From Bacteroidales bacterium (lineage in GTDB: Bacteria > Bacteroidota > Bacteroidia > Bacteroidales > VadinHA17), in assembly GCA_024762655.1 (NCBI GenBank), contig JANTHB010000037.1:1-32706 (forward strand): a stretch of 32,706 nucleotides of DNA, written 5' to 3'. This document shows positions 5,199 to 30,255 of this stretch, piece by piece. Each line of letters begins with the position of its first letter. Position 1 is the first letter of the stretch. Under the pieces are notes generated by a model. It was not told the origin of the DNA and searched no databases. It worked only from the letters and a program-made list of their open reading frames with translations. Both the position numbers and the translations under genes were made by a program.

Positions 5199-7548
5199 GA
5201 AAAAACAAACACACAACCTCTACCTCTGGAAAAAAGCAGGATTCATAGCCACCCTGGTCCTCCTTATCTCTTTTCCCCTGTATCTGGTGCGTTTTTATCT
5301 CACCGGAAACGGCCCGGTAGCCGGAAACACAAATGAAACAGCTCATTATGTAGGAGGGGATCAGTGTATCGACTGTCATCCCAATGAATATCACGACTGG
5401 CATGGCTCCGATCATGACCGTGCCATGGATTATGCTACGGAAAAGAGTGTGGAAGGGGACTTTAACAATACGGTTTTTGTGGACATGAAAGGTGACACCA
5501 GCCGTTTTTTCAAAAAAGACGGAAAGTTTTTTGTGCACACCAAAGGGCCGGGAGGAAAACCCGGCGATTTTCAGATCACCCATACCTTCGGGGTCAGACC
5601 CCTGCAGCAATATCTGGTTCCTTTTGACAGCGGAAGATTGCAATGCCTGCCCATAGCCTGGGACACCATTCGTCACACGTGGTACAGTCTGCCGGATTCG
5701 ATTTATAAGGACGAAAACCTTACCCCGGACAACTGGCTTTACTGGACCAACAACGGTCAGAACTGGAACGGCATGTGTGCCGATTGTCACAGTACCAATC
5801 TGAAAAAAGGGTATGATCCCGCCAAACACACCTACCATACCACCTGGACAGATATAGACGTCAACTGCGAGGCATGCCACGGGCCCGGGTCTGAGCATCT
5901 CAAATGGGCCAACCTTCCTGAGATGGACCGTCCGGAAGGCACCAACTACGGACTCACCGTCAACACCTCCGACCTCGATCCTGTCGAAGAGGTCAAGCAG
6001 TGTGCCCGGTGTCATGCCCGGCGTTCGGTGATGGGGGATTTTACACCGGATGATTTTCATAAGGATTTGCTGGATTATTTGATCCCGCAATTGCTTGTCG
6101 CTCCCCATTATTTCCCCGACGGACAAATCCTTGATGAGGATTATGTCTATGGATCATTTACACAAAGTTACATGTACCAGGAGCATCTGCGCGTTCGTTG
6201 CAGTGACTGCCACAATGTACACAGCCTGAAAACCATCCTGCCGGTAGATGACAACCGGTTGTGCCTGCAGTGCCACCGGTCAGATGTTTACGACACCTAC
6301 CAGCATACGTATCATAAAAAGACAGGAGAGCCCGGGAAGCCTCTGGTACTGGAACACGGGAAAAAAGTGGTGCAGGTAGGCGAGGGAGCCAAATGTGTCA
6401 ACTGCCATATGCCGGGCAGGTATTATATGGGAGTAGATTTCCGCAGGGACCACAGCCTGCGCATACCCCGTCCCGATCTGTCGATGAAACAGGGCACCCC
6501 GAACGCCTGCAATCAATGTCATACAGACAAAACCCCTGCCTGGGCTGAATCATATATCCTTAAATGGTACGGGAAAAGCCGGCGGCATCATTACGGGGAA
6601 GTGCTGGCCCGCGGCAGAGAAAGTGATCCTGCAGCACAGGACAGTCTGATCCTGATCATCCGGGATATCCTTCATCCGGTTATCGTACGCGCTACGGCCG
6701 TCGTGTTATTACAAAACTATCCTGACCGGAAAAGCTTCAATGCCGTCAAACAGGCATTCAGCGATCCCGAAGCCATGATCCGTGAAGCAGCAGTACGCAG
6801 CCTTCCTGCCCTTTCACAAGACCCCTTCAAAGAAGCCCTCCTTCCCATGCTGAACGATCCGGTAAAAGCTGTGCGGATACAGGCTGCCTTCCGGCTCTCC
6901 TCCCTGCCCCGTCGCTCGATCAACGGAAAATATCAGAAGGCTTTTGACAAAGCGCTGAAAGAATACCGGGAAAGCATGCTTTATATGGGAGACTTTGCCT
7001 CCAGCCGGCACAACCTGGGTGTGTTATACGCCAACCAGGGACAAACAACCAATGCCATATCCAACTACGAAGAAGCGATACGTATAGACAATCTCTTTTT
7101 CCCGGCTAAAATTAATCTGGCTTTGCTGTACAACCAAACCGGCCAGAATGACAAAGCCGAAAAAATGCTCCTGGATGTTATTCATCATGAACCGGATTTT
7201 GATCAGGGGTATTATTACCTCGGCCTTCTCATGGCCGAGAAAAAAAATTATGACAAAGCCCTGCGTTTTCTCCTGGAAGCTGCCCGGCGTATGCCTGATT
7301 ATGTCCGGATCAACTATAATATTGCCTTGTTGTATCAACAACTGGGGAAAAAAGACGAAGCCGAAAAGTACCTGTTAAAATGTCTGCGGGCCGAGCCGGA
7401 TAATTTTGATTATCTCTACGCCGCCGCCACCTTTTATCTGCAATCGGGAGACCGCAGCAAAGCCAGACACTTCGCATCCCTGTTGACAGAAAAATATCCG
7501 CAAAACCAGGCGGGGAAAAACATTCTGAACATCCTTAACGGCAAATAA
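5191..7548 (+). CDS. Membrane-anchored octaheme cytochrome c with HEAT and TPR repeats
   Basis: A 785-residue multiheme cytochrome c. After one N-terminal membrane segment (about 15-37) there are eight CxxCH heme sites, at residues 59-63, 196-200, 226-230, 271-275, 337-341, 358-362, 402-406 and 440-444, so the protein should be held on the periplasmic face. Many extra histidines between them can serve as distal ligands. Residues ~475-605 resemble HEAT repeats ('PEAMIREAAVRSLPAL', 'PVKAVRIQAAFRLS') and ~610-785 are TPR repeats ending at the C terminus. The heme part recalls the cytochrome c554/hydroxylamine-oxidoreductase-like superfamily, but I cannot assign an enzymatic activity. With the cyt b and Rieske genes it probably forms an electron-output module; the repeats may dock a partner. 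Confidence 0.9.
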   Translation: MPEKKQTHNLYLWKKAGFIATLVLLISFPLYLVRFYLTGNGPVAGNTNETAHYVGGDQCIDCHPNEYHDWHGSDHDRAMDYATEKSVEGDFNNTVFVDMKGDTSRFFKKDGKFFVHTKGPGGKPGDFQITHTFGVRPLQQYLVPFDSGRLQCLPIAWDTIRHTWYSLPDSIYKDENLTPDNWLYWTNNGQNWNGMCADCHSTNLKKGYDPAKHTYHTTWTDIDVNCEACHGPGSEHLKWANLPEMDRPEGTNYGLTVNTSDLDPVEEVKQCARCHARRSVMGDFTPDDFHKDLLDYLIPQLLVAPHYFPDGQILDEDYVYGSFTQSYMYQEHLRVRCSDCHNVHSLKTILPVDDNRLCLQCHRSDVYDTYQHTYHKKTGEPGKPLVLEHGKKVVQVGEGAKCVNCHMPGRYYMGVDFRRDHSLRIPRPDLSMKQGTPNACNQCHTDKTPAWAESYILKWYGKSRRHHYGEVLARGRESDPAAQDSLILIIRDILHPVIVRATAVVLLQNYPDRKSFNAVKQAFSDPEAMIREAAVRSLPALSQDPFKEALLPMLNDPVKAVRIQAAFRLSSLPRRSINGKYQKAFDKALKEYRESMLYMGDFASSRHNLGVLYANQGQTTNAISNYEEAIRIDNLFFPAKINLALLYNQTGQNDKAEKMLLDVIHHEPDFDQGYYYLGLLMAEKKNYDKALRFLLEAARRMPDYVRINYNIALLYQQLGKKDEAEKYLLKCLRAEPDNFDYLYAAATFYLQSGDRSKARHFASLLTEKYPQNQAGKNILNILNGK

Positions 7549-7578
7549 CCCTCCACGTCTAATTCAAAACTTAACCTT

Positions 7579-8607
7579 ATGGAAAAAATAGAAAGATCCA
7601 CTATTGGCCTGGATTCTTTAGCCTATATCGTGATCATCCTGGCCGGCATCAAAATCTCCGCCTCCATCACAACCCCTTTTTTATTGTCGCTGTTTATCGT
7701 GATCATCTTCAAGCCTTTTTCCGATTCCCTGATAAAAAGAGGCATCCCGCGATGGCTGGCTTTCTCCATTATATCAGTCATCGTGTTGCTTTTCGGATTC
7801 CTGTTGGTTACGATAATATCCATATCGGTTCAGAGTTTTTCGGGGAACCTCTCTTTTTATGATGAAAAACTAAGCACCTACCGCGATGAAATCATTGCTT
7901 TGGCAGAAAAATACGGTATGTCCGACAAGTACCAGCTCACTTCACTCCTGAATCCTGCCCGGATTATGAGTTTTGTCGCCGGAGCGCTGACCAATTTCAG
8001 TGATATTCTCTCCAACAGCGTCCTGATACTCCTGACCGTGATTTTTATTTTCATAGAAACCAACATCTTCCCCGATAAAATAAAAGTCATCGCCAAAGAT
8101 GACAAAAACCTTAAATATTTTCGTGAGATCAACCATCAGGTAAACCATTACATGATGATCAAAACGATCATATCGGCAGGAACAGGATTGATTATCGGGG
8201 CAGCGCTGGCAGTGATACGGCTGGATTTTGCGATCCTGTGGGGACTTATCGTTTTCTTGCTGAATTATATTCCCAACATAGGCTCCCTGATCGCAGCCAT
8301 ACCCCCCATTATTCTGGCCCTCATCCAATTCGGACTTCCCGGGGCTATCGGGGTCACGGGAATCTTTCTGGCCGTCAATTTTGTGATAGGCAATTATATC
8401 GAACCGAAAGTGATGGGGAAAGGACTGGGACTCTCCGTGCTGATTGTCTTTCTCTCTTTGATTTTCTGGGGGTGGTTGCTCGGCCCGGTAGGGATGTTAC
8501 TCTCCGTTCCCATCACGCTTGTTTTTAAGATCATCATGCAGGCACAGCCCGAAAAAAGATGGATTGCCGTGTTGCTGGGAGACGGATCGGAAATCCGCGA
8601 GACCTGA
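7579..8607 (+). CDS. AI-2E-family permease, copy 1
   Basis: A 342-residue inner-membrane protein of the AI-2E/PerM/TqsA family, which has about seven to eight membrane segments. The family's typical C-terminal core is visible: 'LLNYIPNIGSLIAAIPPIIL', then 'NYIEPKVMGKGLGLS', 'SLIFWGWLLGPVGMLLSVPIT'. Family members have been linked to autoinducer export, sodium/proton exchange or are uncharacterised, so substrate assignment is not justified. It begins 30 bases after the octaheme gene and could be read from the same transcript. A second, clearly related copy follows after a terminator. Confidence 0.9.
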   Translation: MEKIERSTIGLDSLAYIVIILAGIKISASITTPFLLSLFIVIIFKPFSDSLIKRGIPRWLAFSIISVIVLLFGFLLVTIISISVQSFSGNLSFYDEKLSTYRDEIIALAEKYGMSDKYQLTSLLNPARIMSFVAGALTNFSDILSNSVLILLTVIFIFIETNIFPDKIKVIAKDDKNLKYFREINHQVNHYMMIKTIISAGTGLIIGAALAVIRLDFAILWGLIVFLLNYIPNIGSLIAAIPPIILALIQFGLPGAIGVTGIFLAVNFVIGNYIEPKVMGKGLGLSVLIVFLSLIFWGWLLGPVGMLLSVPITLVFKIIMQAQPEKRWIAVLLGDGSEIRET

Positions 8608-18944: not shown

Positions 18945-21900
18945 TTATTCAAACCTGGTCCCAATCACCAGGATATCATCTATCTGGGCTTCGTGACCCC
19001 GCCATTTCTCGATGGTATCATCCAGGATCCGTCTCTGTTTTTCCAGATCGTAGTGGTTGATCTTCAGGAATAGTTCTTTCATCTGGCGCGACTTGAATTT
19101 TTTTCCGTCGGGCCCTCCAAACTGGTCGGCATAGCCGTCGGAGAAAACATAGGTCATATCTCCCTTTTCTATCGTAATTTCATGATTGGTAAACTTGCGA
19201 CCCTGGTCCATGGAGGTCATCCCGATGGAAAAGCGGTCGGCTTTGATCTCCTGCAACTCATCATTACGGATTAAATACAGCGGGTTATGAGCCCCGGCAT
19301 ATTCCAGAATACGCGTCTTCCTGTCATAAACGATCAGGGCCAGGTCCATGCCGTCCTTTACCTCTTCCACCCGCGACTGAATGTGCAGGGTGCGGTATAT
19401 CTCATCATTCAGATAATCCAGGATGGAGGCTGCCTGCGTGATGTGATATTCATTGACGATCTTGTTCAGCGAATTATACCCGATAAAGGACATAAACGCG
19501 CCCGGCACCCCGTGTCCGGTACAATCTACGGCGGCAATAAACACCTTCGTTTCCAGCACATTGTACCAGTAGAAATCTCCGCTCACAATATCTTTGGGTT
19601 TGAACAGCACGAAAGAACCGGGCACCTCATCTTCCGGCGGCAGGATCGCGTTCTGAATCCTTTTGGCATACCGGATGCTGTCGGTGATATCCTTGTTTTT
19701 CTCTTCCAGTTCTTTGCTTTTCTCCACCACTTCCGCCGTACGCTGGATCACTTTCTCTTCGAGGATCAGTTTTTCCCGTATCAGATTGCGTTCCCTGATC
19801 TTAATATAGCTCCATATTCCCAACCCGGCCAGGAGGATAACCAGCGAGATAAACCACCAGGTGAGGTAAAAGGGAGGCCGTATGGTAAAGGAAAAGGTCA
19901 CCGGATGGCTGTTCCATATTCCTTCACTGTTCTTCGCCTTCACCATAAAAGTGTAATGTCCGGGCGACAGGGCCGAATAGGTGGCTCTGGTCTCTGTGGT
20001 CACCGGGCGCCATCCGGCGTCGGCCCCTTTGAGCATCACCTGATAACGTACCGCATCAGGGCTGGTGAGACTGATGCTGTAATAATGAAAGATAATAGAC
20101 TTCTCATGATAGCTCAGTTTCATCCCGGGCACCATCGGACGCGGTTCGTAATTGACCTCCATACTGCGGATATGGGTCAGGGGTTCGGCATTGATCTTCC
20201 GGACAAAACCCGGATCATAACGAATAGCCCCGTTGGCTGTGCCGAACCACAGATACCCCTGCCGGTCCCTGTAGGTAGCGTTCCGCTGGGTCTCTATGCC
20301 TACAAAACCATTGCGGCGCGTATATACGACCATTTGTTTTCTGTCCGGAATATACTTGTTCAGCCCCTTGCTGGTGCCTATGTAGATATTCCCTTTTTTA
20401 TCGGTGTTCACCAGGTTGACACGGTTGGCCAGCAGACCGTCTTCTTCGGTCAGGTGTACGGTAAGAGAATCGCCGTTATAGGCAAACAACCCTACATTGG
20501 TGCCCAGCCACAGGGTCCCGTCCGGACCGGAAGTGATCGCCAGCGGGGTGATCTTTTTGGATAATATCTTCCGCTCGAATTTCCCGGTCTTGAAATCATA
20601 ACAGGTCAAGCCTTTCTTGCGTTCCGAGCCGATCCACAATTTGTCTTTGTCCCGGTCGTAATACAGGGCTGTGATCCCATTGCCCACCAGACCGTCCCCC
20701 TGCGAATAACGGGTACCCCGTTTTGTCTCCGGTTCGAAATAGGTCACTCCGTCGTTGGTACCGGCCCATACATGGTCGTTCCTATCCACCACCAGTGCTG
20801 TTACGATCAGATCCCGGTACAGATAACGGTTGTTGAGATAGGAATCATAAAAAAACTGATTTCTCAGGGGATCATACTCAAAGATACCCCCCTGGTAGGT
20901 CCCGATCCAAAGATGTTCGTGCGAATCATTTGCGATAAAACGGACAATATTCTCAATGCCGTTTTCCCTGCGGGAATAATAGCTGAATCGGCGGACCGGT
21001 GCTTTGGAAGGATCATAAACCGTGATCCCTTCGTTGGTGCCAAACCAGTAGGCATGGTCCGGGCTCTGATAGATCGCCGAGACTGTGGAGTTACTCAGGC
21101 CGTCCTCTTTATTAATCACAATAAACTCTTCTCCCTTGAAAATGCTCATCCCGTGATACTGGGTTCCTATCAGAATATTCCCTTCATGGTCCTCCACCAG
21201 GCATTTGATAAAATTATCCTGCAATCCGTTTGAAGTATTGTACGTCTTCAGTTTACCGTCGCGTATGCGGGTGATCCCTCCCCCCCAGGTACCAACCCAG
21301 AGGGTTCCCTGATTATCTTCCAGCAAACAGCTGATCCAGTTATGAGCCAGTCCGTCGCGTTTGCTGTCGAAGATACGTAAGGTATCCCTTTTTTTGCTGT
21401 ATTCATACAAGCCGCCGTGGTAGGTCCCGAACCAAAGATTCCCCTCCCGGTCTTCCAGCATGCATGTCTTCATAAAATAATGAGTGAACGGCTTCAGGGT
21501 AAAGATCTCGAAACTGTCTTTCTCCGGCAGATAAAGATGCACCCCCACATCCGACAGACAAAAATACCGGTTGTCCTTCGACTTATATGCATTGAATATC
21601 CGGTCGCTTAGCCCTTTTCTGCCAAGATACTGTTTCACCTGCATCTTCCCGACAGGGCCGAAAGGATGCTCCACCAGCAGAGCCCCCGAAGCACTCGTAG
21701 TGATCCAGATCTTATGATCCGGTGTCTCCGTAAATGAAGTAATGTCTCCGTTGATGGTAAGCGAATCAAACCGGATCACCTCAAAACGATGGCCGTCATA
21801 GCGGGTTATACCTCCGTCCAGGTGCCCGAACCACAGGTTGTCATGCGAATCCTCCAGGATGGAAAACACCCCGTTTTCGGCCATCCCCTGCTCGGAGGTA

Positions 21901-22139
21901 AAATCCCTGAACTCCTTCCCGTCAAACCGGGATACCCCCGCTTCTGTGCCCAGCCACACCAGATCGTTGTGATCCTGAAAGATGGCATATACTTTGGAAG
22001 AGCTCAATCCTTCTTCCACCCCGTAATTGTCAAAGAAATATTTCTGGGCTTGGCCGGGAAGAAACGTAAGCAGGGAAAAAAACAACAGTAAGATCCACCG
22101 GTAACAGGGTTCCGTTTTGATAGGGAGGAAGTATCTCAT
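18945..22139 (-). CDS. Propeller-sensor protein with cytoplasmic SpoIIE phosphatase
   Basis: A 1064-residue transmembrane signalling protein. Order: signal/anchor ending LPGQAQ (residues 1-32); two seven-bladed-type propellers of 'two-component regulator propeller' repeats (about 40-645; many copies of D-x-x-G-x-(L/I)-W-(F/I/V)-G-T-x-x-G); a Y_Y_Y Ig-like domain (about 680-755); one membrane segment (757-779); a coiled coil (784-820); and a PP2C-type SpoIIE phosphatase (about 850-1064) with metal-binding aspartates in SGDFYW (D855), DCTGHG (D872), SDGYAD (D1001) and DDILVIG (D1054/D1055). The propeller should be periplasmic and the phosphatase cytoplasmic, where family members dephosphorylate anti-sigma-antagonist proteins. 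No such partner is encoded here. It lies 14 bases downstream of the TPR-caspase gene and is probably cotranscribed. No histidine kinase domain is present. Confidence 0.93.
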   Translation of the reverse strand: MRYFLPIKTEPCYRWILLLFFSLLTFLPGQAQKYFFDNYGVEEGLSSSKVYAIFQDHNDLVWLGTEAGVSRFDGKEFRDFTSEQGMAENGVFSILEDSHDNLWFGHLDGGITRYDGHRFEVIRFDSLTINGDITSFTETPDHKIWITTSASGALLVEHPFGPVGKMQVKQYLGRKGLSDRIFNAYKSKDNRYFCLSDVGVHLYLPEKDSFEIFTLKPFTHYFMKTCMLEDREGNLWFGTYHGGLYEYSKKRDTLRIFDSKRDGLAHNWISCLLEDNQGTLWVGTWGGGITRIRDGKLKTYNTSNGLQDNFIKCLVEDHEGNILIGTQYHGMSIFKGEEFIVINKEDGLSNSTVSAIYQSPDHAYWFGTNEGITVYDPSKAPVRRFSYYSRRENGIENIVRFIANDSHEHLWIGTYQGGIFEYDPLRNQFFYDSYLNNRYLYRDLIVTALVVDRNDHVWAGTNDGVTYFEPETKRGTRYSQGDGLVGNGITALYYDRDKDKLWIGSERKKGLTCYDFKTGKFERKILSKKITPLAITSGPDGTLWLGTNVGLFAYNGDSLTVHLTEEDGLLANRVNLVNTDKKGNIYIGTSKGLNKYIPDRKQMVVYTRRNGFVGIETQRNATYRDRQGYLWFGTANGAIRYDPGFVRKINAEPLTHIRSMEVNYEPRPMVPGMKLSYHEKSIIFHYYSISLTSPDAVRYQVMLKGADAGWRPVTTETRATYSALSPGHYTFMVKAKNSEGIWNSHPVTFSFTIRPPFYLTWWFISLVILLAGLGIWSYIKIRERNLIREKLILEEKVIQRTAEVVEKSKELEEKNKDITDSIRYAKRIQNAILPPEDEVPGSFVLFKPKDIVSGDFYWYNVLETKVFIAAVDCTGHGVPGAFMSFIGYNSLNKIVNEYHITQAASILDYLNDEIYRTLHIQSRVEEVKDGMDLALIVYDRKTRILEYAGAHNPLYLIRNDELQEIKADRFSIGMTSMDQGRKFTNHEITIEKGDMTYVFSDGYADQFGGPDGKKFKSRQMKELFLKINHYDLEKQRRILDDTIEKWRGHEAQIDDILVIGTRFE

Positions 22140-22153
22140 AAACTCAACTCAGG

Positions 22154-24499
22154 TTATTTCGCGATAAAGAAAAAGGTCCCGTCTTCATCCTCCAGCCCTG
22201 CGATCTTCCCGAACTGCGGTTTCTGCTGATCATTCTGCACCACCGCTTTGGTAACCTTCCTCACAATGCTCTCAATCGGAATACAGGCATCCGGATTGTT
22301 CAGCAAGGTATTGGCAAAGGTACGTGTAAATTGTGAATTATCCACAGCCAGTTCATAGCCGGCCGAGGAAAATACCTGGGAGGATTTGAACCGGGTGGCT
22401 TTCCAGTCGTCACAGCTTCTCACCTCCGGAATGGAACGCATCGCCTGGTAAAATGTGGGACCGGACTCGCAGGCATCGGTGATCACCAGAATATGGGTCA
22501 CCCACTTGGCATAAGCCTGCAAAGCCCCTTTCAGATTGCTTATATTAAAATAGGTAAACTCATCGTCCCGTTTGGCATCCACCGGGATCCAGTAGCCTGT
22601 TTCATTAATGAACTTTCCGTGTCCGGCATACCAGATCAGGATAGAGTTGACATGGTTGCTACGCACCAGGTCCCGCAATTCAATGGAAAAGAATTTTTCC
22701 ATCTCCGCCTTGGTCATGTCTTTTTTTACAATGATATTGCTAACACGGTAGCGGGCCAGCGCCTTTTTCATCAAAGAGATATCCTTGGGGGGTCCGTCGA
22801 GCGAAGCAAACGTCTGGTAATTGGAGTTCTCTATAAATACAGCCCAGGTTTTCCCCATGGGATTGTCCGCAGCAACAGCTACCCCCTCACGATTAAGCTT
22901 ATAATCGGTAGTGCTTTTATTCCCGTAAATATCTTCAGCCGTTACGGTAAAGTGGTTCTTGTTCATAATGTTGATCGTAGCTGAAAAATGCGGGTTGGTC
23001 TCGTCCGGTTTATAGCTGGCATAGATTCCGTTGATCATGATTGTTTTTATGGGACTTTCGTCATTGATCTTCCCCTCGATATAAAGTTGGGGATCGGACG
23101 ATTCCAGATAGATTTCTCCGTTGTCCGAAGCATACGGTGCGATAATCTTCACCGCCGGCGGGTTGACTTCCGTCCTGCGGATAAAAAACTCCTCCCTGGC
23201 AACATTGTGATAGATATCGCTGGCTTCGATCATGACCTCATTGGTGTCGTGCAGTTCGACATTGGCCAGAAACTCCACGGTTCCGTTTTTCTTGTCCAGA
23301 TGAGCCGGCTGGCCGTTGATCTTCAGATATTCCAGGTCGCTCTGGTCTTCTACCTTCCCTTTCAGGATCACCTCCTTTTTATTCTCCGGGACGTTGATCC
23401 TCCTGCTGTCATCCGGTGCGGGGATCAACAGGGAGATTTCAGGTTTGTCGCTTTCACGGTTCAGTTCATACAATCTTTTCTGTGCCTCTTTCAGCATTTT
23501 CTCAGCCTCGGCATTGTTTTTGGTCAGTTTGGTGATAGCTCTGTAATCCTTTTCAGCAGATTTATAATCCAGGATATCTTCATAGGATCCGGCCCGGGCC
23601 ATATACGCTTTCGGATCCTCGGGCCGCAGGCTGATAACCTTGGTAAAGTCGGTGATGGCGTTGATATGCTGGTTAAACTGCTGATAATATTTCCCGCGCA
23701 GAAAAAACATCTCCGGATTATCCGGTTCTATCAGCAGGATCCTGGAAATGTCATTGATGGCATTCGGCATATCCAGTTGTTTTACATACACCTTACTGCG
23801 GATAAGATAAGCCTGCGTGTTCTTGTTATCATACGACAGCACAAAATTACACTCTTTGATGGCCTGATCGGTCTTATCCTCTTTCAGATAGAGATTGGCC
23901 AGTGCCAGGTGTGCATCGGTATATCTGCTTCTCAGGTTGGCAGCCTTGTGATAGTCTTGTTCTGCTTCGCTCAGGTTTGACAGTTTTTCCTGTGCCTGTC
24001 CCAGTAAATAATAGTTCAGCGGCGTCTCCCGGATCTTTTTGGCCGAATCGGCAGCATACATAGCCTCCTTGTATCGTTCCAGTGCCATCAACGCTTTCAC
24101 CTTTGCCTGCAAGGCGCTCATCGGCTTTTTCTGCAACCGGGTGGCGTGGTTAAGCATATCCACAGCTTCCGGATAACGCCCTAGACTGTTGAGGATCGTT
24201 CCGGCCCGGTAATACAGGTCTGCTTCATCATTGACAAATACCAATGCCCTTTTATAATCCTCCAGCGCTTTTTCCGGCTGATTCAGCCGTTCATATACAT
24301 CCGCCCGCGCCACATACGCTTTGGTAAACTCCGGTTTTAGTTCGATGGCTTTGGAAAACTGTACGATGGCATCCTGATACGCCTTTTTGTTTAAAAACTC
24401 CTGCCCGGTTTTATAATATTTTTTTGCATTCTGGGAAAATCCCTGTACTCCGAAAACAAACAGCAGGATAAATCCGCCGATAAAAAATTTCGTTTTCAT
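22154..24499 (-). CDS. Exported TPR / Ig-like / caspase-family (C14) protein
   Basis: A 781-residue protein with a signal peptide (1-23, ending GFSQ), about nine TPR repeats (residues 25-345), two Ig/cadherin-like beta domains (about 355-440 and 447-535), and a C-terminal caspase-fold peptidase domain (545-781). The catalytic dyad is intact: His627 in 'YAGHGKFINETGYWIP' and Cys677 in 'ITDACESGP'. Caspase-family peptidases cut after acidic or basic residues; specificity here is unknown. The signal predicts location outside the cytoplasm, probably periplasm. A TATCTTTG box lies just upstream. The last 14 bases before the SpoIIE-sensor gene suggest a two-gene operon. The catalytic domain is nearly duplicated in the stand-alone gene at 24780-25556. 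Confidence 0.9.
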   Translation of the reverse strand: MKTKFFIGGFILLFVFGVQGFSQNAKKYYKTGQEFLNKKAYQDAIVQFSKAIELKPEFTKAYVARADVYERLNQPEKALEDYKRALVFVNDEADLYYRAGTILNSLGRYPEAVDMLNHATRLQKKPMSALQAKVKALMALERYKEAMYAADSAKKIRETPLNYYLLGQAQEKLSNLSEAEQDYHKAANLRSRYTDAHLALANLYLKEDKTDQAIKECNFVLSYDNKNTQAYLIRSKVYVKQLDMPNAINDISRILLIEPDNPEMFFLRGKYYQQFNQHINAITDFTKVISLRPEDPKAYMARAGSYEDILDYKSAEKDYRAITKLTKNNAEAEKMLKEAQKRLYELNRESDKPEISLLIPAPDDSRRINVPENKKEVILKGKVEDQSDLEYLKINGQPAHLDKKNGTVEFLANVELHDTNEVMIEASDIYHNVAREEFFIRRTEVNPPAVKIIAPYASDNGEIYLESSDPQLYIEGKINDESPIKTIMINGIYASYKPDETNPHFSATINIMNKNHFTVTAEDIYGNKSTTDYKLNREGVAVAADNPMGKTWAVFIENSNYQTFASLDGPPKDISLMKKALARYRVSNIIVKKDMTKAEMEKFFSIELRDLVRSNHVNSILIWYAGHGKFINETGYWIPVDAKRDDEFTYFNISNLKGALQAYAKWVTHILVITDACESGPTFYQAMRSIPEVRSCDDWKATRFKSSQVFSSAGYELAVDNSQFTRTFANTLLNNPDACIPIESIVRKVTKAVVQNDQQKPQFGKIAGLEDEDGTFFFIAK

Positions 24500-24516
24500 A
24501 ACAACCTAATTTATAC

Positions 24517-24524
24517 CAAAGATA
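24517..24524 (-). promoter_or_regulatory. -7 box for the TPR-caspase/sensor operon
   Basis: TATCTTTG on the minus strand matches TAnnTTTG, 17 bases before the ATG at 24499. No clear TTTG is present at the -33 position. The same octamer precedes the lipid kinase gene (3138-3145). Confidence 0.5.
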
Positions 24525-24602
24525 AAGAATATTTTTCAGACGCCATTTTATACGATTCCACATGGATAAGGTTGCAATTATTTTTTCTTCATAAGTTGCT
24601 TT

Positions 24603-24628
24603 CTCCTACGTAGGCGCCTACGTAGGAG
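24603..24628. repeat. 26-bp perfect palindrome between the caspase genes
   Basis: The 26 bases are exactly self-complementary. They contain two copies of the 10-bp palindrome CCTACGTAGG, at 24605-24614 and 24617-24626, centred on GGCGCC (24613-24618). The copies are 12 bp apart, roughly one helical turn, which suits side-by-side binding of two regulator dimers. It sits 79 bases upstream of the -7 box of the TPR-caspase operon and 152 bases past the end of the stand-alone caspase gene. It could equally be a terminator stem, but no T run follows on the minus strand. Confidence 0.6.
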
Positions 24629-24779
24629 GCACAAGCCGGCGTTGCACAAAACCACGATAAAAATTCGCCGGTCATAGTGAACCGCCACGGAAGCGAAGGA
24701 CTCCGGTTAAACAGAGATTTTAAGAAAACGCAGGTGTACGTTGCGGGAAGGCCGCAAAGGGTCTTATTTACAAAACAGG

Positions 24780-25556
24780 TTACTTTTTATAAAACAGAAA
24801 CGTTCCCCCTTCGTTTTTCAGACCGGCGATGTTGCCAAACTGAGGCCGGTCCTGGTGATTCTTGATCATGGCGACGGTCACCTTTCTGGCAATGGTTTGT
24901 ACCGGTATGCATTTCCTGGTATTGTCCGCGAGAGCGGTGGCAAAAGCCCTGGAAAAAAGGGATTCACTGGAGGCCAGATCATACCCCAGGGCCGAGAGTA
25001 CCTGGTAGGAGTTTCGTTTTGCCTGACCGGCCTGGGCACAGTCGGGCTCTACCGGAATGGAACGCATGGCCTGGAAAAAGGTAGGGCCCGATTCACAGGC
25101 ATCCGTAACCACCAGGATATGCGATAACTGGCCGGCATATTTCTTCAGTTCGTTCTTCAGATCATCCATTTTATAAAAGGTAGACTCATCATCCCTGACG
25201 GCATCCACCGGGATCCAATAGCCCGTCTCATTGATGAACTTTCCGTGTCCCGAATACCAGATCAACAAAGAACTGACATTATTTTCCCGTAACAGTGAAA
25301 CCAGACCGGAAGAAAAAAACTTTTTCATTTTCTCCAGGCTCATATCCCGTTCGACCAGGATGCGGTCCATCTGATAATTTGCCAGAGCACCGGTGACCGA
25401 CTGTACATCTTTGATGCTCCCGGCCAGACTGGAAAGGGTCAGGTAGTTGGTGTTCTCAATAAACACAGCCCAGGTCTTTCCCATGGGATTGCTCTGGGCA
25501 CAAAGGGAAAATACAAACCATACCGATATGATCAGGAATAATAGAATTTTCTTCAT
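24780..25556 (-). CDS. Stand-alone exported caspase-family (C14) protein
   Basis: A 258-residue protein consisting of a signal peptide (1-20, FSLCA before QSN) and one caspase-fold domain. The dyad is present at His104 ('YSGHGKFINETGYWIP') and Cys154 ('VTDACESGP'). It is very similar along its whole length to residues 545-781 of the neighbouring TPR-caspase: both begin with NPMGKTWAVFIEN and end with 'PQFG(N/K)IAGL'. It lacks TPR and Ig-like domains. The cysteine at residue 19 does not fit a lipobox (FSLC), so this is probably a soluble periplasmic or secreted protein. It lies on the same strand as, and upstream of, the TPR-caspase, with 280 bases between them. Activity and substrate are unknown. 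Confidence 0.88.
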   Translation of the reverse strand: MKKILLFLIISVWFVFSLCAQSNPMGKTWAVFIENTNYLTLSSLAGSIKDVQSVTGALANYQMDRILVERDMSLEKMKKFFSSGLVSLLRENNVSSLLIWYSGHGKFINETGYWIPVDAVRDDESTFYKMDDLKNELKKYAGQLSHILVVTDACESGPTFFQAMRSIPVEPDCAQAGQAKRNSYQVLSALGYDLASSESLFSRAFATALADNTRKCIPVQTIARKVTVAMIKNHQDRPQFGNIAGLKNEGGTFLFYKK

Positions 25557-25949: not shown

Positions 25950-26519
25950 TTGGCTGTAAAAGACAAAGAACTAAAACGGATTGTTGAGGGTTGCAAAAAG
26001 GGGAATCCCGGAGATCAAAAGGAATTATACCACCGGTTTGCTCCTTATATGCTAAGCATATGTAACAGATATGCAAGAAATATTATGGATGCGGAAGATA
26101 TTTTCCAGGAAGGGTTTTTAAAAGTATATGCAAACATTCATCAGCTAAAAAGAGTGGAAGCGGTCATGTGGTGGATGAAAAGAATATTTGTGAATGAAGC
26201 GCTGTCATTTTATCAGAAACAACCCGATTTATACCGGCTTGATAATATTCCCGAAGAAAAAGGCGATTTAACCGAAGAAGAGACACCCGTAAGCAAGATA
26301 TCCACAGAAGAAATGACGCTTATGATACAAAATTTACCCAACAAAATGCGAATGGTTTTTAACATGTATGTCATTGAAGGCTATACGCATCAGGAAATTT
26401 CGGACCTGCTCGGCATTTCAGTGGGAACCTCTAAATCCAACCTGCATGATGCAAGGAAAATTTTGCAGATGAAAATACGACAATTTGAATACCAAAAAAA
26501 TACGGATAATAATATATGA
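25950..26519 (+). CDS. ECF-type RNA polymerase sigma factor
   Basis: A 189-residue extracytoplasmic-function sigma factor that would direct RNA polymerase to a specific promoter set. Region 2 spans about residues 25-68 ('LYHRFAPYMLSICNRYARN', 'DAEDIFQEGFLKVY') and region 4 about 125-175 ('LPNKMRMVFNMYVIEGYTHQEISDLLGIS', 'GTSKSNLHDARKIL'), with a short acidic linker between. No ATG fits the N terminus; TTG at 25950 after an AGAGAAG stretch is the probable start. The stop overlaps the next start as ATGA, so the two are translationally coupled, the usual sigma/anti-sigma arrangement. Such factors are normally held by a membrane-bound partner, which is probably the next gene. Confidence 0.92.
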   Translation: MAVKDKELKRIVEGCKKGNPGDQKELYHRFAPYMLSICNRYARNIMDAEDIFQEGFLKVYANIHQLKRVEAVMWWMKRIFVNEALSFYQKQPDLYRLDNIPEEKGDLTEEETPVSKISTEEMTLMIQNLPNKMRMVFNMYVIEGYTHQEISDLLGISVGTSKSNLHDARKILQMKIRQFEYQKNTDNNI

Positions 26520-28018
26520 GCAATTCTACTGAAGATAACCGTTTTGATTTCGAGATAAGGAAGAAATATGAGCGCCATGCATTATCACCCGATGATAATA
26601 TGTGGGAGAAAATCTATGCTCGTTTGGCAATGCATAGTTCTATTCACGTCCTTCATAAGATACGCAATTTGAAGATTGCTGTAATTATAACTACTACGGC
26701 CTTTATCGGCACGTTACTCTACTATGAAATCAGTATTTCAGGAAAACATAATCAAAACATTGTATTGTCGAAAAAAAACAGAATAAAAGAACGTCCTTCG
26801 ACCCTTCACAGGAACATTCTTCGGGAGCAGAATAAGTTCAATCTGAAGAAATCATATCAGTCCACCGATACCACCCATTTGTTTACCACCCCGCCAGGTT
26901 TAATTCCAAAGAGGCATGAAGCAGGAAAGGGGGTCATGCAAACACAAAATCATATCCTTACCAACACTCAAACGGGGAACTCCTCAAAAATAAAACGTAG
27001 ACCAAAGGCTCTGAAAAACCTGCCTGTGTCATCAGTGGCAAGGGAAGCGGCCTTATCTTCAAAAGAAAACCTGATTTTACAGGGCAAAGAACAATCAAAA
27101 AGCACTATTAATAAAAAGCGAAATAAGATTAAAGAAACAAAACAAGAGAGAGAAAAACTTCAAACCATCCCGCCCCGCCTGTTATATACCGAGCATCATA
27201 AACCCATGAATATTATTTTTTCTGCAAAAACAACACCCTTGGATCATATTGTTTCAGCTAAGAAGTCTTTTTCATCAAAGCTTCTGAACCCTTTGAATGC
27301 AAATTATTCTCCTGTTCTCGGCAGAAGATATTCCCTGACATTCTATATATGTCCTACCTACTCGTACAGAAGCCTGGCAGATAACAGAGCTTTTTCCACA
27401 CCTCCCTACGATAAATCATATTTCAATGACCGAGACCAGGGAGATATAAGCTATGCTGCAGGAGCTTTATTTACATACAGCTTCAGACCAAAAATCAGAC
27501 TTGAATCAGGGGTTTATTATTTCAATTATACCTATGACTTCAAAACACAAGCCACATATGTTAATGTCGATCAGGGGTATAATTGGTTCTACACTTCTGC
27601 AGGTATCCTGAATTTTCATGCCTATCTGTCTGATACTTTACTACAGAATGCCTTGTTAAAATCCAAAATGAAATTTTCTTATCTCAGTATTCCCCTACAT
27701 GCAGAATATGATTTTTCCCCTTCAATATTTATGAATATAGGGATGAATATAAGTTTCCTTATCGGAAAAGACTTACAAATGCAGGCTATCGATTATACCG
27801 GGGACTTTGATTTCCAGGCGGGAGATATTCAACATCTTCATTCCTATAACCTTAACATAATTATTGGTTTGGGGTTCAGACAAGCTATCAACAAAAATAT
27901 GAGTTTCATCATTAATCCGGCATTCCGGGCTTCATTAACGACATTGAATGATCAAGCCACAGTGAAGTCTTACCCTTACACGGTAGGGCTAAGTGCGGGT
28001 CTCAGATATTACTTTTAA
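26516..28018 (+). CDS. Putative anti-sigma protein fused to an outer-membrane beta-barrel
   Basis: A 500-residue protein with an unusual order: a cytoplasmic N terminus of ~50 residues with 'SPDDNMWEKIYARL', resembling the short sigma-binding segment of Bacteroidota anti-sigma-like proteins; one membrane segment (about 52-70); a long basic Lys/Ser/Thr-rich linker (about 75-265); and a C-terminal beta-rich domain (about 270-500) of the OMP_b-brl type ending in an aromatic 'GLRYYF', the classic outer-membrane barrel end. If correct, the chain runs from cytoplasm through the periplasm to the outer membrane. There is no cleavable signal peptide. The ATGA overlap with the sigma gene supports the anti-sigma role, which remains inference. 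Confidence 0.75.
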   Translation: MSNSTEDNRFDFEIRKKYERHALSPDDNMWEKIYARLAMHSSIHVLHKIRNLKIAVIITTTAFIGTLLYYEISISGKHNQNIVLSKKNRIKERPSTLHRNILREQNKFNLKKSYQSTDTTHLFTTPPGLIPKRHEAGKGVMQTQNHILTNTQTGNSSKIKRRPKALKNLPVSSVAREAALSSKENLILQGKEQSKSTINKKRNKIKETKQEREKLQTIPPRLLYTEHHKPMNIIFSAKTTPLDHIVSAKKSFSSKLLNPLNANYSPVLGRRYSLTFYICPTYSYRSLADNRAFSTPPYDKSYFNDRDQGDISYAAGALFTYSFRPKIRLESGVYYFNYTYDFKTQATYVNVDQGYNWFYTSAGILNFHAYLSDTLLQNALLKSKMKFSYLSIPLHAEYDFSPSIFMNIGMNISFLIGKDLQMQAIDYTGDFDFQAGDIQHLHSYNLNIIIGLGFRQAINKNMSFIINPAFRASLTTLNDQATVKSYPYTVGLSAGLRYYF

Positions 28019-28147
28019 TTTTTTTTTCCATCATAAGGGCCTCCACAACCCAACCCTTTCACTGTTATTGTATCTTATAATCGGGAAGCAATAAAGATCA
28101 AAATGGAAGATCAGCAAATTATTATTTTTTTAACTCAAAAATCCAAA

Positions 28148-28963
28148 ATGATGAAAACACGAATTTTAAGTTCAGTGGGAGTTCTGGTAGCACTGGTCAC
28201 CTTGTTCTCCCTGACAGGATGCATGAAAAACAATGTAAAAAATGCATCATTGAAGATGACCGCCTCTTCAATAAAAACAAAAGGTGTACTGAAATCAGCA
28301 ACGGTATCCGGTCCCTTACAATTGGCATCCGGAACACTAACCGTTACCGAAGCAAATGTTAATATTGCAAATTTACAGATTGAGGAAAACTCCGGCAACG
28401 ATGTGCAGCAGCAGGTTGGTAATCAGCAACAGGGAGGGGCAGAAGATATCGGAGGAACTGAAGGAAAGGATAACGAAAAGGAAAAGGAAGGCACGGAAAC
28501 AGACAAGGAAACAGGCAGTGAAGATATTTTGCTGGCAGGGCCTTTTTCTCTGAATATAAGTAGTGGAAATGCCATCATTGATCAGGTTAATGTATATCCT
28601 GGTACGTTTAAAAAGGTAGACTTTACCTTTCAGCTTAACCCCAATGCTCCCTTCAACGGACATAGCATTGCCATTGCGGGAAACTATACGGCATCGGATG
28701 GTACCATAATTCCCGTTGTCTTATCTTCCGATTTCGCAAAACAGGTTCAGCTTCCTTTGGCTAACGGAGGCGTGACGGTACCATCCAACGCCTCGGTTGC
28801 CATAACCATTGTATTTGATCTCAATAAATGGTTTGGAAACCTTGATCTAACGGGGGCAACAGTTACCGATGGAAAGATTGTAATCGACAGCCAAAACAAT
28901 CCTTCATTGCTTGCAGCCTTCGAAGCCAATGTGGCAAGCAACATAGATGTCGAGAACGAGTAA
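28148..28963 (+). CDS. Lipoprotein, DUF4382-like
   Basis: A ~271-residue lipoprotein: hydrophobic leader and lipobox SLTGC, with acidic and lysine-rich low-complexity residues in the middle (about 95-130, E/K/G/T-rich). The remaining parts are beta-rich ('GPFSLNISSGNAIIDQVNVYPG', 'FKKVDFTFQLNP'), resembling the DUF4382 type of extracytoplasmic beta-sandwich, though I am not certain. Two adjacent ATGs (28148, 28151) are possible starts; an ATG 45 bases upstream would put 15 polar residues before the leader and is less likely. It follows the anti-sigma gene by about 130 bases and ends in a strong terminator. Function unknown. Confidence 0.7.
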   Translation: MMKTRILSSVGVLVALVTLFSLTGCMKNNVKNASLKMTASSIKTKGVLKSATVSGPLQLASGTLTVTEANVNIANLQIEENSGNDVQQQVGNQQQGGAEDIGGTEGKDNEKEKEGTETDKETGSEDILLAGPFSLNISSGNAIIDQVNVYPGTFKKVDFTFQLNPNAPFNGHSIAIAGNYTASDGTIIPVVLSSDFAKQVQLPLANGGVTVPSNASVAITIVFDLNKWFGNLDLTGATVTDGKIVIDSQNNPSLLAAFEANVASNIDVENE

Positions 28964-28993
28964 TGAGCGGGATGGGGTTTTAATCTCAGGGAC

Positions 28994-29030
28994 AAGAGCA
29001 ATCTGTTCAGTAAACGGATTGCTCTTTTTT
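28994..29030 (+). terminator. Strong Rho-independent terminator after the lipoprotein
   Basis: A 14-bp stem, AAGAGCAATC-TGTT at 28994-29007 paired with 29013-29026 (one G-T pair), with loop CAGTA, followed by a run of T residues (29025-29030). It separates the sigma operon from the downstream lipid A deacylase gene. Confidence 0.9.
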
Positions 29031-29049
29031 GCTTATTTTTAAAAATTTT

Positions 29050-30255
29050 ATGCGCTTATTCAAAACATATCTGAATAAATCCATCTTTAAGAGAATCTTC
29101 TTATTAACGGTATTTTTTTTATTGTATGTTTCCTATACCAGGGCTCAGGATCCGGACTCTCATATCCGTCCATCTCATAATCTGGAGATATTTTATCAGA
29201 ATGGATACGTTTTTCCCACCGATCCTTTTCTGAGAGGGTACAATGCAGTATCTGACGGGATTGACGCCTATCAGGCTTTCTCTTTACGTTTTTCCAAACA
29301 AACCATTGGCAATAAACTTTGGGAACAATTATATAAATATCCGGTCTGGGGAGGAGGGGTGTATGTGGCCGATTTCTTTAATCCGCAGGAAGTAGGGACT
29401 CCAATAGCTATATATGGGTTTTTTAATGCTCCTTTTAAGAGATGGGATAGGTGGTCTTTTAACTATACGCTGGGATTCGGACTGGCATTTAACTGGAAGC
29501 ATTATGGCCCGACCAATATTTACAATGTGGCGGTTGGGGCTCCTTTTACCGTTTATATTGATGCCGGGATGAATATGGAATACCGGATTGCAGACAAATG
29601 GAATGCCGCTCTGGGATTTTCCCTGAGTCATTTTTCAAACGGGGCATTAAAGAGACCTAACAAAGGCATTAATACCGTGGCTCCAAGGATTAGCCTAATG
29701 TATCGATTTGGGGAGGGAAAAACGGTTTTTATCCGGCAGGATATCCCGAAATTTTCAGGAAGCAATGAATGGTTGTTTTCTGTTTTTGGCGGAAGTCAGA
29801 ATATCCTGACGGACACTTCCAATATTACCCTGGAAGAAAAATATGAAGGGGTCTTTTTCCCCGTCTTTGGAATTCTAACCACTTATAACCGATACATTAG
29901 TTATAAATCAAAAATCGGCTTTGGGGTTTCAGTGTCCTATGACGGTTCGGTAAATGCAAAAATTGCTGTTGAAAACGGAGAACTGGAAGAAAAAGAGGCC
30001 CCGTTTGGGGAGAAATTACAAATAAGCATCTATCCTTCCTATTCGCTGGTTGTAAACAGGATTTCCGTAATCATACAACCCGGCGTTTATTTATACCGGA
30101 AAAAATTCGCCCTCCAAACCCCCGTTTTCTATCAAAGAATAGGATTAAACTATCAGATCAATAACCACCTGACAGCCGGCATAAACCTCAGGGCTTATCA
30201 TTTTCATGTATCCAATTATATTGAATGGAACGTCGGATACAGACTTCCCTGGTAA
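29050..30255 (+). CDS. PagL-like lipid A 3-O-deacylase / acyloxyacyl hydrolase
   Basis: A 401-residue outer-membrane beta-barrel enzyme of the PagL/acyloxyacyl-hydrolase family, which removes an acyl chain from lipid A and so changes the surface. After a signal peptide (ending YTRAQ, about residue 33) come beta strands; the active-site signature HFSNGAL is at residues 194-200, giving His194 and Ser196 of the catalytic triad. The barrel is longer than the ~170-residue proteobacterial PagL, as is normal for Bacteroidota members. ATG 29050 was chosen because the upstream TTG (29029) lies in the terminator's T run. Clustering with the sigma/anti-sigma pair suggests an envelope-modification role, but it has its own transcript. 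Confidence 0.85.
   Translation: MRLFKTYLNKSIFKRIFLLTVFFLLYVSYTRAQDPDSHIRPSHNLEIFYQNGYVFPTDPFLRGYNAVSDGIDAYQAFSLRFSKQTIGNKLWEQLYKYPVWGGGVYVADFFNPQEVGTPIAIYGFFNAPFKRWDRWSFNYTLGFGLAFNWKHYGPTNIYNVAVGAPFTVYIDAGMNMEYRIADKWNAALGFSLSHFSNGALKRPNKGINTVAPRISLMYRFGEGKTVFIRQDIPKFSGSNEWLFSVFGGSQNILTDTSNITLEEKYEGVFFPVFGILTTYNRYISYKSKIGFGVSVSYDGSVNAKIAVENGELEEKEAPFGEKLQISIYPSYSLVVNRISVIIQPGVYLYRKKFALQTPVFYQRIGLNYQINNHLTAGINLRAYHFHVSNYIEWNVGYRLPW

Follow-up and report, generated by a model that had tools for sequence, protein, structure and literature searches.

A conserved gene pair of an exported caspase-fold protein and a propeller–SpoIIE receptor phosphatase suggests a signalling pair in uncultured Bacteroidales

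Closest described systems

To our knowledge, most bacterial caspase homologues are without known substrates or pathways. Here a gene pair is analysed from a Bacteroidales bacterium (contig JANTHB010000037.1 of assembly GCA_024762655.1; the whole stretch of 32,706 nucleotides is called the window), in which the gene for an exported protein with tetratricopeptide-repeat (TPR), immunoglobulin-like (Ig-like) and caspase-fold parts, TPRCASP, lies directly upstream of the gene for SENSOR, a transmembrane receptor phosphatase with a β-propeller ectodomain. The conserved pairing provides a concrete partner for a bacterial caspase homologue and would add transmembrane signalling to the roles of caspase-fold proteases.

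Several described systems resemble parts of this pair. PorU–PorZ, a pair from the attachment complex of the type IX secretion system, likewise combines a cysteine peptidase (PorU; clan CD, family C25) with a double propeller that is exported and resembles the ectodomain of BT4663. PorU, however, acts as a sortase, and PorZ is located at the surface and has a C-terminal domain (CTD), whereas SENSOR carries its propeller as the ectodomain of a phosphatase that spans the membrane, and TPRCASP is of the TPR/Ig/C14 type; the PorZ equivalog model NF052228 reaches 89.6 bits on SENSOR, below its cut-off of 260. PorU has been shown to bind PorZ directly, and more strongly with ligand (PMC8545088), and PorZ to resist cutting (PMC5121618). 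With SiaA and the RsbU-type partner-switching phosphatases, SENSOR shares the architecture of a membrane protein with a C-terminal SpoIIE/PP2C domain. It differs from them in its ectodomain and in having an upstream caspase partner, and the SiaA equivalog model NF038263 matches residues 793–1064 (1.4e-56) with 192.4 bits, below the cut-off of 700. Hybrid two-component sensors of the BT4663 type carry the same kind of ectodomain, composed of Reg_prop propellers and a Y_Y_Y domain, followed by a membrane span. Their C-terminus consists of histidine kinase, receiver and DNA-binding domains, whereas SpoIIE is the sole Pfam family listed for the C-terminus of SENSOR, which places it outside this type.

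On the protease side, bacterial orthocaspases and the paracaspase MALT1 have in common with TPRCASP the caspase fold, the His–Cys dyad and a D-x-C motif, whereas TPRCASP is exported, carries an N-terminal TPR/Ig part and is tied to a receptor phosphatase. The TPR-CHAT protease of the type III-E CRISPR complex Craspase also joins TPRs to a caspase-like protease, and it acts on a sigma-factor partner (Csx30–RpoE; PMC9729208); this CHAT protease, however, is activated by RNA and associates with a CRISPR effector, whereas TPRCASP is exported and adjoins a receptor gene. No CHAT family stands among the Pfam matches listed for TPRCASP, and no search for CRISPR loci was made. No description of the TPRCASP–SENSOR pair was found in an open-access library, outside which most subscription papers lie.

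Conservation of the TPRCASP–SENSOR pair

In the window, the two genes are separated by 14 bases (22140–22153), and CASP258, a gene for a stand-alone caspase-fold protein, precedes TPRCASP at a distance of 280 bases (24500–24779; Table 1). A TPRCASP relative is encoded in 253 of 270 stretches of a public genome collection, and the best 80 of these 253 were used for the locus counts. All 80 are labelled as metagenome-assembled genomes, mostly as Bacteroidales, Bacteroidetes or Bacteroidota, with one Chlorobiota and one Chitinophaga among them. At least 300 bases lie beyond TPRCASP in 78 of the 80 loci, and in 77 of these 78 the gene that comes immediately after it on that strand is SENSOR, with a median gap of 11 bases. 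Additionally, a set of 60 genomes, the window's own included, was tallied by hand at orthologue thresholds of E<1e-60 for TPRCASP and E<1e-170 for SENSOR. TPRCASP occurs in 32 of them and SENSOR in 34: both genes are found in 32 genomes, neither in 26, SENSOR alone in two and TPRCASP alone in none. In G005, one of the SENSOR-only genomes, the contig ends inside TPRCASP. When 296 genomes drawn from the phylum were compared with the TPRCASP profile at E<=1e-60, the window's own genome was the only one matched, which makes the pair look restricted to one clade of uncultured Bacteroidales.

Such adjacency could arise from passive synteny, the two genes lying together because this stretch of chromosome is stable in the clade, and other neighbours, ribD and a LOG-type gene among them, are also kept in many members. 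The pair is, however, better kept than its flanks: against the SENSOR count of 77 of 78, RibD is encoded upstream in 57 of 69 loci, and 48 of 64 loci have the LOG-type (Lysine_decarbox) gene on the downstream side, and within the window's genus the pair has priA/PFK or other flanks, so that the flanks vary while the pair stays. Moreover, both genes are missing together from G017, G020, G026 and G028 (three of these genomes are 80–85% complete), and separate caspase and sensor clades, described below, show the same pairing. With flanks less conserved than the pair, passive synteny is largely rejected and is regarded as highly improbable. RibD was also considered as a functional third gene and was discarded as a housekeeping neighbour that is not seen within two open reading frames upstream in 12 of 69 loci.

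A preliminary description of this DNA had proposed a three-gene module in which two exported caspase-like proteins are linked to a SpoIIE phosphatase. The three minus-strand genes and the 14-base gap are located as it had placed them, and the linkage between exported caspase and receptor phosphatase is borne out by the neighbourhood conserved in relatives. The TPRCASP–SENSOR part of the proposal thus stands as a conserved unit, whereas CASP258, present in five of the seven genus members and confined to the window's genus among the 60 genomes, is not a conserved component. The pair suggests a signalling pair, and a working hypothesis for its operation is set out below.

Table 1. Positions of the genes, domains and catalytic codons in the window, and of the exported partner of a third sensor clade
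Feature	Position	Strand	Description and support
TPRCASP	22154..24499	-	781-residue exported TPR / Ig-like / caspase-fold protein
TPRCASP TPR superhelix, ~residues 24–346	23462..24430	-	Pfam TPR families; helices in model; OGT TPR domain Z 27.8
TPRCASP all-beta (Ig-like) region, ~residues 350–537	22889..23452	-	strands in model; Glucodextran_B match below cut-off
TPRCASP predicted caspase-fold domain, ~residues 545–781	22157..22867	-	model m46299dc8fbfc, predicted local distance difference test (pLDDT) 87; MALT1 Z 20.8
TPRCASP catalytic His627 codon	22619..22621	-	28/28 rows; 80/81 in wider set, a count biased because one of the locus-finding peptide patterns contains the His motif
TPRCASP catalytic Cys677 codon	22469..22471	-	28/28 rows; 81/81 in wider set
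SENSOR	18945..22139	-	1064-residue transmembrane receptor phosphatase: signal peptide, propeller, Y_Y_Y, transmembrane segment, linker, SpoIIE/PP2C
SENSOR Reg_prop β-propeller ectodomain, ~residues 33–650	20190..22043	-	Pfam PF07494 1.5e-54; PorZ model NF052228 1.7e-25, below cut-off
SENSOR Y_Y_Y domain, residues 692–753	19881..20066	-	PF07495 2e-13
SENSOR transmembrane segment, ~residues 757–781	19797..19871	-	19-residue hydropathy windows >1.6 only at starts 755–764
SENSOR cytoplasmic SpoIIE (PP2C) phosphatase domain, residues 864–1063	18951..19550	-	PF07228 2.5e-18
CASP258	24780..25556	-	258-residue exported protein consisting of a single caspase-fold domain, paralogous to that of TPRCASP; PF00656 1.2e-12
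Exported ~325-residue partner	L194:2950-3921, L212:2979-3965, L207:7886-8845 and six more		directly upstream of third sensor clade

The exported caspase-fold protein TPRCASP

Structure prediction indicates that the C-terminus of TPRCASP is a caspase fold. An AlphaFold2 model of residues 539–781 has MALT1 (4i1r) as its best solved match, with a root-mean-square deviation of 2.5 over 194 residues, and a profile built from 65 caspase domains matches metacaspase-4 (4.6e-7) and MALT1 (1.1e-6) among solved structures. The fold search with the whole TPRCASP model was filled by matches to TPR chains and is uninformative on the caspase part. At the family level, PF00656 (Peptidase_C14) is not among the Pfam families listed for TPRCASP at E<=1e-3, the NCBIfam model NF047832 matches the caspase domain at 5.3e-9, below its cut-off, and the domain can be aligned with CASP258.

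The His–Cys dyad is kept in all rows of the whole-protein search, is invariant in mixed sets of 14 and 65, and departs in a single row of the wider set (n = 81), where His627 is replaced by Arg. TPRCASP is most strongly conserved in its caspase domain, where the most frequent residue of an alignment column has an average share of 0.81, versus 0.57 in the TPR and Ig parts. The D675-x-C677 motif resembles the position of Asp211 in TbMCA2, whose catalytic cysteine is Cys213. Asp211 is an S1 pocket residue (PMC4357240), and by this likeness a basic P1 residue is suggested, with predicted cleavage by TPRCASP after Arg or Lys.

Hydrophobic N-termini are detected by hydropathy on both TPRCASP and CASP258. 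A Gln stands behind the hydrophobic stretch in 71 of 89 TPRCASP N-termini; a second pattern, applied to 80 rows, gives Gln in 55, a lipoprotein-like Cys in 15 and neither in 10. Gln in this position is typical of Bacteroidetes signal peptidase I substrates (the Q-rule; PMC5837995). TPRCASP is thus apparently exported and, in one subclade, lipid-anchored, and because the N-termini look like export signals, TPRCASP and the SENSOR ectodomain probably both face the periplasm. On these points the preliminary description holds: it had named His627 and Cys677 as the catalytic residues, whose loss in orthologues would have spoken against its proposal, and had assigned the exported caspases to the compartment of the SENSOR propeller. 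The lipoprotein-like Cys replaces the usual Gln at the signal-peptide end in TPRCASP of L103, L107, L111, L117–L119, L122 and other loci.

The receptor phosphatase SENSOR

SENSOR is a member of the SpoIIE/PP2C family, its C-terminal domain reaching 67.2 bits against a cut-off of 25. The acidic residues D855, D872, D1001, D1054 and D1055, which we take to be the metal ligands of SpoIIE/PP2C, are kept in 65 of 65 full-length rows. The N-terminus is hydrophobic by inspection, as it is in 40 of 41 orthologues. A conserved cleavage linker was sought as a candidate feature of the ectodomain, and none was seen in the 65 aligned rows.

The genome to which the window belongs encodes candidate downstream components. 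HATPase_c_2 has eight matches, one of which lies in a short stand-alone, RsbW-like frame (140 residues, contig C39), and STAS (PF01740) has three, in stand-alone frames of 115–123 residues. With these candidates for kinase and antagonist in the genome, the output of SENSOR is probably a partner switch.

Other caspase and sensor clades

The genomes of the 60-genome set carry several propeller–SpoIIE receptors each, and SENSOR is not the only one with a caspase partner. Among 50 weaker caspase rows in these genomes, two are ends of TPRCASP where a contig stops; reading the regions around the remaining 48 yielded 47 profile-confirmed caspase genes. Eight of the 47 (types of ~445, 432 and 608 residues) are followed on their own strand, at a distance of no more than 300 bases, by a Reg_prop–SpoIIE gene. 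These eight caspases, together with that of L165, form a clade apart from TPRCASP, and their sensors form a clade apart from SENSOR (support 96/95). The best tree keeps the two caspase-paired sensor clades apart, and all 200 of 200 bootstrap trees lack a branch with the unpaired sensors on one side of it; the one-clade test of the caspase-paired sensors gives an approximately unbiased p value (p-AU) of 0.067. Caspase–sensor pairing may thus have arisen once or twice. In the sample of 296 genomes from the phylum, eight have the second caspase type, at 13 places.

Caspases are, moreover, not the only upstream partners. Among 20 other propeller–SpoIIE sensors that were picked, nine have a conserved exported protein of ~325 residues directly upstream, for which no Pfam match was found in the three scanned. 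Because the second caspase–sensor clade and this third clade share the upstream position of the partner, an exported protein encoded just upstream of a propeller–SpoIIE receptor appears to be a wider habit, with the caspase as one kind of partner, and it suggests that such receptors are best read together with their exported partner proteins.

Further arrangements were observed in these regions. In L065–L069 and L071, a four-gene cassette comprises a kelch-type protein and a 263-residue protein, both encoded upstream of the caspase, a CARDB/caspase protein (~445 residues) and a Reg_prop–SpoIIE sensor; its families were scanned in L066 only, plus the 263-residue protein of L067, and the latter protein has no Pfam match in L066 or L067. 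A large sensor of 1567 residues (L195:4899-9602) has SBP_bac_3 solute-binding domains fused before the propeller and SpoIIE. In two genomes from other families of the phylum, the gene after an exported caspase-fold gene encodes a propeller-type protein (matches to Reg_prop/Sortilin or PSII_BNR) that lacks SpoIIE (L238:5668-7911 and L225:1-1488), and a genome of the same class has about nine caspase-fold genes arrayed on a single strand (L245 and L246; G181 contig C96, ~329–350 kb).

Proposed mechanism and alternatives

It is very likely that TPRCASP and SENSOR act in the same pathway. That they constitute a dedicated two-gene signalling module, with TPRCASP as periplasmic co-receptor of the receptor phosphatase, is favoured with reserve, and direct binding between the two proteins is, by analogy with PorU–PorZ, probable to a similar degree. 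In the proposed scheme, TPRCASP would bind the SENSOR propeller in the periplasm as PorU does PorZ, and its TPR/Ig part would recognise a periplasmic signal. This signal would run via the Y_Y_Y domain, transmembrane segment and linker of SENSOR to the phosphatase, which would dephosphorylate one of the stand-alone STAS proteins of the cell; the dephosphorylated STAS protein would in turn shift an RsbW-like kinase, freeing a sigma factor or other target. Since TPRCASP is best conserved in the domain with the active site, the switch probably involves a cut, be it of a ligand, of SENSOR or of TPRCASP itself. A strict need for proteolysis in signalling is put at even chances, and the SENSOR ectodomain itself is a doubtful substrate.

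Several observations weigh against a dedicated module. L092 (TPRCASP at 5854–8202) is cleanly without SENSOR between TPRCASP and the next conserved gene, so that TPRCASP may be used independently of SENSOR there, or the bin may be misassembled, and G009 holds a piece of SENSOR beside a glycosidase gene, without TPRCASP. No SpoIIE sensor lies within 300 bases downstream of 39 of the 47 other caspase genes, four of which stand at a contig end (L165, L170, L180 and L188). In the wide regions read from other families of the phylum, no caspase gene is adjoined by a SpoIIE gene; the nearest (L243:11066-13054) is the second gene downstream from two caspase-fold genes that form a pair, whereas L240 is cut off by the end of its contig. 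Finally, gene neighbourhood by itself is not binding, and the target of the phosphatase is inferred.

A different account of the pair is a proteolytic relay, in which TPRCASP cuts the SENSOR ectodomain and the cut turns the phosphatase on or off. The conserved dyad, the high conservation of the protease domain and the shared compartment agree with it, as do two basic ectodomain residues, K335 (65/65 rows) and R400 (60/65), that are specific to the SENSOR clade, with K335 found in one of 23 other aligned sensors and R400 in none of the 23. No other basic position of the ectodomain, however, reaches a conservation of at least 90% among the SENSOR rows, and K335 sits inside a propeller repeat motif. 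The two residues serve as candidates for contact or cleavage and no more. The relay is further disfavoured by the conserved exported partner of the third sensor clade, which is without a Pfam match, and by PorZ, which is bound by PorU yet resists cutting (PMC5121618); overall it is considered unlikely. The co-receptor reading is ranked before a cut of SENSOR because of this PorU–PorZ precedent, and binding rather than cutting may be a general principle, since the partner without a Pfam match occupies the same position as the caspase. Only tentatively can a proteolysis-gated receptor phosphatase be proposed, in which a periplasmic caspase-fold protease, armed by its TPR/Ig sensor part, would cut a transmembrane PP2C in or close to its propeller and thereby drive a cytoplasmic partner switch, as a case of the wider exported-partner rule.

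TPRCASP may instead be the output: SENSOR would control a protease of the periplasm whose role lies in cell death or in the processing of envelope proteins, with the genes adjoining for co-regulation only. The operon-like spacing of the pair and the caspase duplicate (CASP258) nearby in the genus fit this arrangement, and a role as proteases of stress and cell death is discussed for caspase homologues of prokaryotes (PMC7935541 and others). The output of SpoIIE is, however, cytoplasmic, and an exported partner immediately upstream in another sensor clade fits a co-receptor better; neither point is decisive, and TPRCASP as output is judged rather improbable.

CASP258 and neighbouring genes

CASP258 scores 48.5 bits against the PF00656 cut-off of 21.4 and is thus a member of this family. 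It is not seen at the locus in G006, and in G005 a contig end lies at the locus. In a quick tree with long branches elsewhere, it forms its own clade (support 98), and its genus-only occurrence together with this separate clade led to its rejection as a core component of the module. Promoter and terminator scans gave signals not clearly above those of shuffles. Beyond CASP258, at 25950–30255 of the window, lie a divergent sigma-70 family gene, then an outer-membrane β-barrel gene, a gene without a Pfam match and a PagL-like gene.

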